A stretch of DNA of 64,000 nt from Enterococcus phoeniculicola ATCC BAA-412 (GTDB lineage Bacteria > Bacillota > Bacilli > Lactobacillales > Enterococcaceae): positions 493,324-557,323 of the forward strand of contig NZ_ASWE01000001.1 in assembly GCF_000407505.1 (NCBI RefSeq). Direction: 5' to 3'. Every line of letters starts with the position of its first letter. The stretch's first letter is position 1. Positions 18,822 through 21,730 of this stretch are shown piece after piece. The position numbers and the translations under genes are program-made. The notes beneath the pieces were generated by a model, which had not been told where the DNA came from, ran no database searches, and saw only the letters and a list, made by a program, of their open reading frames with translations.

Positions 18822-20264
18822 ATGTATAATATTCCGACAGGATTCCCTAAAAATTTCTTGTGGGGTGGGGCATTGGCTGCGAATCAAATGGAGGGTGCCT
18901 ATTTAGAAGATGGAAAAGGTCTATGTGTAGCAGATGTGAATGAATTTGTTGACCATATTGATATAAAAAAGAAGAGCAACAAAGGCTTGTCATCTGAATA
19001 TGTACTAAAAGCAATAAAAAGTGGAAAAGAAGAGCATCGCTATTTTCCAAAACGTTGGGGAATTGATTTTTACCACACCTATAAAGAAGACTTGGCATTA
19101 TTAAAAGGAATGGGTATTAATGCTTTAAGAACAAGTATTAACTGGTCTCGGATTTTTCCAAATGGTGATGATAGTCAACCAAATGAAGCTGGCTTAAAGT
19201 TTTATGATGAACTTCTTGATGAAATGCTTCGTTTAGGTATCGAACCAATGATTACTATCTCTCATTATGAAATGCCTTTGAATCTAGCCTTGAAACAAAA
19301 TGGTTGGCTATCACGAGAAACGATTCCATTATTTGAAAAGCTATGCCAAACGTTATTTGATCGATTTCATTCAAAAGTTAAAAAATGGATTGTAGTTAAT
19401 CAAATTAATCTCGTACATTTTGAAACATTCAATCATCTAGGAATACTGGAAGATCGAGTTGATAATTATCAAAATGCCATTTATCAAGCGGTTCATAATG
19501 AAATTGTTGCTTCTGCAAGAGCCACAAAATACGCGCATGCAACCTATCCTGATTTAGAAATAGGCATGATGATTTATAATTCTCCAGTGTATGCAAAAAC
19601 GACAAAGCCTGAAGATAACCTAGCAGCATTACAGTATCGCCAAACACAATTATTCTATACAGATGTTTTACTGCGTGGCTATTATCCCGGCTATTATCTA
19701 AGACATTTACAAGAAAAAAATATTCAAATTAATTTTGGTGAAAATGATGCAGAAGACTTGAAGAATACGGCTGATTTCTTGAGTTTCTCCTATTATTATT
19801 CATCAGTTGTTTCAAAAGAGAGCTTTGCAACAAAAGCTGGTTTTGAAATGAATGAAAATCTTGAAGCCAATCCATGGGGCTGGACGTTTGATGCGACTGG
19901 ATTACGCTATACATTGAATGAATTATACGACCGCTATCAATTACCGATTTATATTACTGAAAATGGCAGTGGGTTTTATGATGAATTTACAGAAGGAATG
20001 GTTCACGATGACTATCGCATTGACTTTTATAAGAAACACTTACAAGCAATGAAAGAGGCCATTATTGATGGGGTAGATGTACGAGGCTATTATGCTTGGG
20101 GACCGATTGATATTATTTCTTGTTCATCAAGTGAAATGAGTAAACGGTACGGATTTATTTATGTTGATCGCGACGATTATGGCAACGGTAGTAATAAGCG
20201 TTACTTAAAAGATAGTTATGCCTGGTATAAACAAGTGTGTGCAACAAATGGTGAACAACTCTAA
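18822..20264 (+). CDS. GH1 phospho-beta-glycosidase with Gln in place of acid/base Glu
   Basis: This 480-residue GH1 enzyme opens with [23 protein letters not shown] and ends with [14 protein letters not shown], the phosphate-binding loop of 6-phospho-beta-glucosidases. The nucleophile Glu380 (YITENGSG) is present. The acid/base motif, normally TFNEIN, reads VVNQIN, so the catalytic acid is Gln194 (codon CAA). In plant myrosinases the same change goes with thioglucosides whose leaving group needs no protonation. The enzyme is thus either specialised for S-glycosides or other activated glycosides, or has altered chemistry. It probably acts on sugar phosphates delivered by the PTS in front of it. 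Neighbouring paralogue 20276-21730 shares the change. Confidence 0.9.
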
Positions 20265-20275
20265 AGGAGGACACA

Positions 20276-21730
20276 ATGAAAAAATTACCAACTGGATTTA
20301 AAAAAGATTTTTTATGGGGAGGCGCAGTAGCAGCCTGCCAAGTTGAAGGAGAGTATTTAAAGGATGGTCGAGGGCTATCGACTAGCGATATTCATATGTA
20401 TGATCAGAATCTTGACCGATTACACTATGGACTAGAAGGGGGAGGGACACTCGCATATATTAAAGCGGCGGCTGAGGATACAGAAGGCTATTATCCTAAA
20501 CGCCACGGGATTGATTTTTACAATACGTATCCAGAAGACTTAAAGTTGATGGCAGAGATGGGCTTTACTTGTTTTCGTTCAAGCTTTTCTTGGAGTCGAA
20601 TTTTTCCGAATGGTGATGAGCTGGAACCAAATGAAGAAGGATTAAAATTTTATGATCGTTTTATTGATGAGCTGTTAAAATACGGGATGGAACCCATTAT
20701 GACTATCTCACATTATGACATGCCTTTGCATTTAGTGACTGAATATGGAGGTTTTGGAAATCGTAAAGTGATTGACTTCTTTGTTCGCTACGCAAAGGTT
20801 CTCATGGAGCGTTATCATGATAAAGTTACTTATTGGATTGTAGCAAACCAGATTAATTTGATTCCAATTGTTCGTTTTGGCTTGTTAGGAATTTATGATG
20901 ACCAAGTTCCAGAAGAGAAGATGGATCAATTGATGTACCAAGCAGTACACAATTTATTTGTTGCTTGTGCAAAAACGACTGAATTAGCACGTACGATTGA
21001 TCCGGCAATGCAAATGGGAATTATGTTAGCTGATGGAACCAACTATCCAGCAACCTGTCATCCAGAAGATGTGGCGTTGACAATGAAGCGAAATCGGCTA
21101 CAAAACTACTATTTTACAGATATTGCCTTTAGGGGAGAGTACCCAACCTATATTTTGCGTTATTTTGAAGAGCAGAATATTAAAATTGAGATGGAGCCAG
21201 AAGATGAGAAGCTGTTAAAAGAAAACACCATGGATTTTCTAGCCATGTCTTATTATTCATCAAGTGTGATTGATCATAAGAAAAATGAGTATAAAGCATT
21301 TGACATGTCACAAAATCCTTATTTAGAGCCAACTCCATGGGAATGGCGAATGGACCCGCTTGGTTTTTATAATGCCTTAAGTCAAAACTGGGATCGCTAT
21401 CAAAAACCCATTATTGTAGCTGAAAATGGGTTAGGCGCTTTGGATGAAATACAAGCTGACGGATCGATTCAAGATGATTATCGGATTGATTACATTCGCA
21501 AGCACATTGAAGCAATGAAGATGGCTGTATTAGATGGTGTGGATATTTTGGCATACTGCTGGTGGGGACCCATTGATATTGTTTCTTCTTCAACTGCGGA
21601 AATGTCTAAACGTTATGGACTCATTCATGTTGACCTAGATGATTTAGGCCAAGGGTCTGCAAAGAGAACGAGAAAAAAATCTTTCTCTTGGTATCAAAAA
21701 GTAATTGCTTCAAACGGTGAAGAATTATAA
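20276..21730 (+). CDS. Second GH1 phospho-beta-glycosidase with Gln in place of acid/base Glu
   Basis: This 484-residue paralogue of the preceding gene has the GH1 opening [19 protein letters not shown], nucleophile Glu383 (IVAENGLG) and the phosphate-loop stretch [16 protein letters not shown]. The acid/base position is again glutamine, Gln192 in IVANQINL (codon CAG). The two proteins differ widely elsewhere, so the shared substitution is kept rather than a recent copy. An RBS (AAAGGAGG) lies 8 bases before the ATG, and only 11 bp separate the genes. It is the last gene of the PTS operon. Different substrate ranges for the two are likely. Confidence 0.9.

Follow-up and report, generated by a model that had tools for sequence, protein, structure and literature searches.

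Here, I show that two tandem GH1 genes of Enterococcus phoeniculicola ATCC BAA-412 have Gln where GH1 enzymes normally have the acid/base Glu and that, on sequence grounds, they belong to a large, old, PTS-linked bacterial group, which appears to have been founded by one Glu-to-Gln change and is apparently undescribed. Neither a description of a Gln acid/base in a bacterial phospho-GH1 nor a measured activity for any member of the clade was found in the open-access literature. The reading favoured here, with a probability somewhat below one half (about 0.47), is that both enzymes are retaining 6-phospho-beta-glucosidases whose substrates shed the aglycone with no proton from the usual residue. 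The genes lie in the window, i.e. the whole stretch of 64,000 nucleotides analysed (contig NZ_ASWE01000001.1, positions 493,324 to 557,323), with the following features:

14977..16707, reverse strand: PRD/Mga-type transcription regulator, divergent, with an EIIA_2-like C-terminus (Pfam HTH_11, Mga, PRD, PTS_EIIA_2)
16778..16816, no strand: inverted repeat of 16+16 nt, AAGTAAATGTTTGCAC-N7-GTGCAAATGTTTACTT, between the PRD regulator and the PTS operon
16873..17187, forward strand: PTS EIIB, lactose/cellobiose class (Pfam PTS_IIB 8e-14)
17225..18451, forward strand: PTS EIIC, diverged lactose/cellobiose family member and distinctive companion of Gln-GH1 (Pfam PTS_EIIC 4e-23)
18478..18819, forward strand: PTS EIIA, lactose/cellobiose class (Pfam PTS_IIA 8e-30)
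18822..20264, forward strand: GH1a, GH1 6-phospho-glycosidase-like, with Gln194 for the acid/base Glu, nucleophile Glu380 and Glu201 at position +7 from the Gln
19401..19403, forward strand: codon CAA of Gln194 in GH1a (from the sequence)
20276..21730, forward strand: GH1b, the second GH1, with Gln192 for the acid/base Glu, nucleophile Glu383 and Val199 at +7
20849..20851, forward strand: codon CAG of Gln192 in GH1b (from the sequence)

The PTS in front of the two enzymes is a complete lactose/cellobiose-class set of IIA, IIB and IIC, in which the phospho-acceptor Cys of EIIB and His of EIIA are read within LLVCGSG and LFAHAQD, respectively; it is conserved across relatives, and the dedicated PTS of a preliminary description of this DNA is thereby borne out. 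EIIB is given a start at 16873 rather than at the listed GTG at 16801, because the inverted repeat overlaps the latter. The top NCBIfam matches of EIIC are of the lactose/cellobiose class, its 158.6 bits against lacE falling under the cut-offs of both the lactose/cellobiose subfamily (236) and the cellobiose equivalog (434). The inverted repeat is a candidate operator of the PRD regulator, and arms like its TTTGCAC/GTGCAAA recur in some relatives, e.g. at loci L083 and L106. The regulator ORF is broken by an in-frame TAG (14977-14979, reverse strand) inside the EIIA_2-like domain, past which homology continues in the same frame down to about 14803 (tblastn with relatives); the window copy is either truncated, or the TAG is an error or a strain-specific mutation. 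Elsewhere in the window (28506-28866), short tandem DNA repeats that encode repeated peptides in several frames and on both strands (RCRDVPTWCIRYTLSE and others) look like an intergenic repeat array.

In GH1a, NQIN occupies residues 193-196, Glu380 lies in TENG and SKRYG starts at 440, and in GH1b the same elements are NQIN 191-194, Glu383 in AENG and SKRYG from 444; the retained nucleophiles and MSKRYG loop of the preliminary description are thus read in both ORFs. The two Gln residues align, ungapped around the motif, to the acid/base Glu column of 6wgd, 4ipl, 2xhy and 3pn8. Since Gln stands exactly in the acid/base column of the solved enzymes, no other Glu fills that position, which settles the one alignment check that could have undone the claimed replacement (CAA and CAG codons in the two genes). 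The pair scores 398 and 410 bits against Pfam Glyco_hydro_1 (cut-off 22.6) and stays under every NCBIfam 6-phospho-beta-glucosidase subfamily cut-off (best 478.7 against 623, and 535.2 against 639); as for the marks of the GH1 family, the (beta/alpha)8 fold and the Glu nucleophile in ENG are present and the Glu of the NE motif, a usual residue that is known to be replaced by Gln in some GH1 members, is absent. The predicted models (pLDDT 95.6 for GH1a and 94.4 for GH1b) fit 6-phospho-beta-glucosidases best, with TM of about 0.9, the top PDB match of GH1a being 6wgd (48% identity).

With BglA, AscB and BglA-2 (6wgd, 2xhy, 4ipl) the window pair shares fold, nucleophile, 6-phosphate site and PTS context, whereas it departs from them in the acid/base Gln and in the clade-specific Pro428, Cys434 and Tyr326 (GH1a numbering), which, together with Glu201, are among the residues that part Gln from Glu types. 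The 6-phosphate site (Ser433, Lys441 and Tyr443 in GH1a, and their GH1b counterparts) is the same as in Glu types, and Gln22, His148, Asn193, Tyr325, Glu380, Trp426, Ser433, Lys441 and Tyr443 of GH1a, which I take to be the glycone- and phosphate-binding residues, do not vary across 75 Gln and Glu types. The column in which Trp marks 6-phospho-galactosidases (PMC10360150) holds Cys or Ser in the Gln rows, which points to glucose as the sugar.

The Gln type is by no means confined to the window. The genome has 23 GH1 genes in all, 19 with NE, three with NQ and one broken. The third Gln-GH1, of the FNQVNDVHGWGE type (G000:C5:93903-95306, locus L194), sits in its own operon, in the order IIB-PRD-IIA-IIC-GH1; the broken gene (G000:C4:85105-86499, L265) is a pseudogene with an internal stop, HE for NE and Lys for the nucleophile Glu. 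A degenerate pattern (K-V-x-x-W-h-x-x-N-Q-h-N, h being hydrophobic) matches in 41 of 105 Enterococcaceae genomes, the reversed pattern used as control in none. It also matches in 15 of 398 Lactobacillaceae genomes, partly, it seems, by chance. In a scan over 85,000 species, more than 100 stretches with the NQ pattern stand among the matches listed, and most of these belong to complete GH1 genes that combine Gln with an intact nucleophile. Hosts include Erysipelotrichales, Enterococcus, Vagococcus, Listeria (L. monocytogenes among them), Brochothrix and Companilactobacillus, as well as, among others, Paenibacillus, Neobacillus, Clostridium, Lacrimispora, Enterobacterales and Chloroflexota.

A single branch (support 99) divides the Gln from the Glu types in a 109-row tree; after 23 further Glu-type rows from the same genome and three relatives were added and the motif was masked, there is still one change (support 95). 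Given the Glu of other GH1 enzymes, the most parsimonious account is a single Glu-to-Gln change. GH1a and GH1b fall into two separate old subclades, and an Erysipelotrichaceae MAG (L154) has a GH1a-like gene followed by a GH1b-like one, in the order of the window. That two separate genes hold the change, as was noted at the outset, is therefore correct in so far as both carry Gln, yet the trees trace them to one Gln ancestor and the two are not independent.

Gln and the nucleophile Glu are invariant in all 82 diverse, non-redundant rows of the clade, drawn from many genera, and therefore selection, not decay, acts on them. Chance or error behind the Gln was rejected, given its fixation across a clade, and so was a decaying pseudogene pair, given the invariant nucleophile and phosphate site. 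The same invariance, kept despite great divergence, makes it very improbable that the Gln enzymes are dead homologues serving as binding or sensor proteins, an idea that could draw on the inactivation of GH1 enzymes by Glu-to-Gln replacement in laboratory use (Gan1D E170Q). Moreover, a Glu-type GH1 shares the operon with the Gln-GH1 in only 6 of 144 loci, so that most loci offer the imported sugar no alternative linked enzyme.

These 144 Gln-GH1 loci, in which genes were called and clustered by similarity and some species count twice, also answer to the survey of NQ-type GH1 proteins and their PTS context that had been proposed. An EIIC of the window family is found near the Gln-GH1 in 113 loci and a PRD regulator in 91; EIIA (94) and EIIB (77) counts are biased low, short genes and cut loci being under-called. 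The most frequent layout is a divergent regulator followed by IIB, IIC, IIA and Gln-GH1. In Enterococcaceae, 41 of 51 relatives of the window EIIC lie within 6 kb of a Gln-GH1 match; among the other 10, five loci were read, three with a Glu-type GH1 (NEQ) and two without a GH1. EIIC and GH1 distances are correlated (Mantel r 0.49, 0 of 2000 permutations). In some loci the partner of the Gln-GH1 is instead a beta-glucoside PTS of the bgl type, along with the antiterminator LicT.

A few other arrangements were noted. At L065, L111, L126 and L140 a GH1b-type Gln enzyme adjoins a Glu-type GH1 with the NEQ motif, and at other loci the partner of the NEQ-type GH1 is a cousin of the window-family EIIC. 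Some operons, Enterobacterales included, encode their own PTS enzyme I (L118, L119, L125), which may mean that they were transferred as complete units. Further genes accompany the operon at some of the 144 loci: a YczE-like membrane protein at 16, an EamA exporter at 6, and also RpiR regulators and a tyrosine phosphatase; a sulfatase adjoins it in four gut genomes. A 205-aa neighbour considered as a beta-phosphoglucomutase proved to be the YczE-like membrane protein, and the sulfatase (4 loci) is a weak link to glucosinolates because the genomes concerned hold 9-26 sulfatase matches each.

Plant myrosinases (1myr, 1e4m, 7z1i) likewise combine an acid/base Gln with a Glu nucleophile, and from this likeness the preliminary description had proposed a thioglucoside or another glycoside with a good leaving group as substrate. 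In its narrow form, namely that the PTS imports a glucosinolate or another S-glucoside and that the Gln enzymes are 6-phospho-myrosinases, the proposal is doubtful. Plant myrosinases are not known to have a 6-phosphate site, and the distance between the two groups suggests that their Gln is probably an independent event. They carry at Gln+7 an Arg (fragment match to 7z1i, 1myr and 1e4m), presumably the sulfate-binding Arg194, in contrast to the Glu of GH1a and the Val of GH1b; across the 82 Gln rows this position is Glu in 64, Val in the GH1b subclade, Gly, Asp, Gln or Cys in other subclades, and Arg in none. The clade is, in addition, common in bacteria without a crucifer link. Nor is Gln a proof of thioglucosidase activity, since rice, which lacks myrosinases, has an acid/base Gln in Os4bglu14 and Os9bglu33 (PMC1781453), or a need for it, since an aphid myrosinase works with two Glu (PMC6767122). 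Hence the good leaving group survives from the original proposal, and the specificity for thioglucosides does not.

A glucosinolate route is nevertheless favoured by the published case of Companilactobacillus farciminis, in which a PTS (CfPttS) takes up sinigrin and the GH1 CfPbgS cleaves its 6-phosphate, activity being seen only on phosphorylated sinigrin (PMC8660893). This overturns the earlier remark that no bacterial PTS route of this kind was known; what is newly seen here is the Gln clade itself and not a PTS route for glucosinolates. A second published instance of PTS-coupled glucosinolate breakdown involves bglA/ascB of E. coli O157:H7 (PMC6767122). Both systems combine PTS uptake with GH1 cleavage of a beta-glucoside 6-phosphate, but CfPttS is a fused IIBCA of the bgl type, while the window PTS consists of separate IIB, IIC and IIA of the lactose/cellobiose type. 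Along the same line, glucosinolate breakdown is reported for Enterococcus casseliflavus CP1, with no enzyme assigned to it (PMC6767122), and the related species E. gallinarum has a window-type operon. Against this, thioglucosides are split by GH1 phospho-glucosidases of other kinds as well: in L. plantarum, 8 of 11 GH1 phospho-glucosidases have 6-phospho-beta-thioglucosidase activity, and Lp_3525 of that species has the usual Glu acid/base (PMC10360150).

A case in point for the wider clade concerns L. monocytogenes NZ_CP030101.1 (a chromosome-sized sequence, yet filed as a plasmid), where a Gln-GH1 reading VKYWIIINQIN (L234 5001-6425) occurs in the order SSADH-IIB-IIC-IIA-GH1-PRD. Judged from gene order, this locus would be lmo0913-lmo0918, with lmo0917, the 'beta-glucosidase', as the Gln enzyme. 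Unlike the window, it has a single GH1, from another Gln subclade. lmo0917 is induced in soil extract (PMC3179493) and lmo0915, cellobiose-specific by annotation, in infected mouse tissue (PMC2679221); the open-access literature yielded a substrate test for neither.

Read from the conserved Gln, nucleophile and phosphate site, the predicted fold and the operon, the activity, the sugar and the leaving group would be as follows. The PTS would import a beta-glucoside, more probably the glucoside of a small molecule than a plain disaccharide, and phosphorylate its sugar at C6; the paralogous GH1a and GH1b would then split the 6-phospho-glycoside with retention, through a covalent intermediate on Glu380 or Glu383. 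The first step would proceed without a proton from Gln, as in plant myrosinase. With Gln as acid/base residue, the aglycone should therefore either leave easily or take its proton from another source, be it its own acid group, solvent or, in GH1a-type enzymes but not in GH1b, Glu201. Water would finally free the glycosyl-enzyme, perhaps with the help of an anion, a part played by ascorbate in myrosinase. The laboratory mutant Gan1D E170Q, crystallised with cellobiose-6-phosphate, is labelled a catalytic mutant, and a native Gln enzyme should therefore be poor on ordinary disaccharide phosphates. GH1a and GH1b probably serve different aglycones, for their aglycone-side residues differ (Glu201 as against Val199 and Arg358); Arg358 is invariant in GH1b and its subclade, and its place would be close to the aglycone. 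The YczE-like and EamA proteins, present in a minority of loci, would suit aglycone export.

If Glu201 were a true replacement acid, GH1a-type enzymes would need no special leaving group. On that view Glu201 took over proton transfer and ordinary O-glycoside phosphates are cleaved. Position +7, which I take to be Phe198 of maize Glu1 and Arg194 of myrosinase, presumably lies within the aglycone site of plant GH1 enzymes, and the Glu that prevails there in the Gln rows is uncommon in that column among Glu types. As a general account this is unlikely, in that the whole GH1b subclade has Val, and other lineages Gly, Asp, Gln or Cys, while Gln and the nucleophile are kept in all. Less probable still is a transferase or phosphorylase, in which a slowly hydrolysed glycosyl-enzyme hands its sugar on to phosphate or a different acceptor: this is chemically plausible for a retaining enzyme stripped of its acid/base, and the Gln-type GH1s of a plant without myrosinases (PMC1781453) are in keeping with it, but the identified recurrent neighbours include no phosphoglucomutase or acceptor-related gene. 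The favoured reading, cleavage of glycosides whose aglycone departs without the usual proton, itself has against it that the gut, soil and food distribution of the clade gives no single obvious substrate.

To sum up, it is about an even bet that, after one loss of the acid/base Glu, the clade diversified with its own transporter on 6-phospho-glycosides that its enzymes split with no help from the usual proton donor, most lineages having a replacement Glu and the others lacking one. This would be the bacterial equivalent, on phosphorylated substrates, of the myrosinase mechanism. Public records name the genes of the clade 'glycoside hydrolase family 1' or 'beta-glucosidase', a reaction at which, judging from their active sites, these enzymes should be poor on ordinary substrates. 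The nutrient that these bacteria gain in this way is probably some sugar conjugate. If the enzymes act on activated glycosides, the clade would represent a large nutrient route, as yet unassigned, of enterococci, Listeria and gut Erysipelotrichales, and would offer a bacterial test case of retaining glycosidases that work without an acid/base catalyst.
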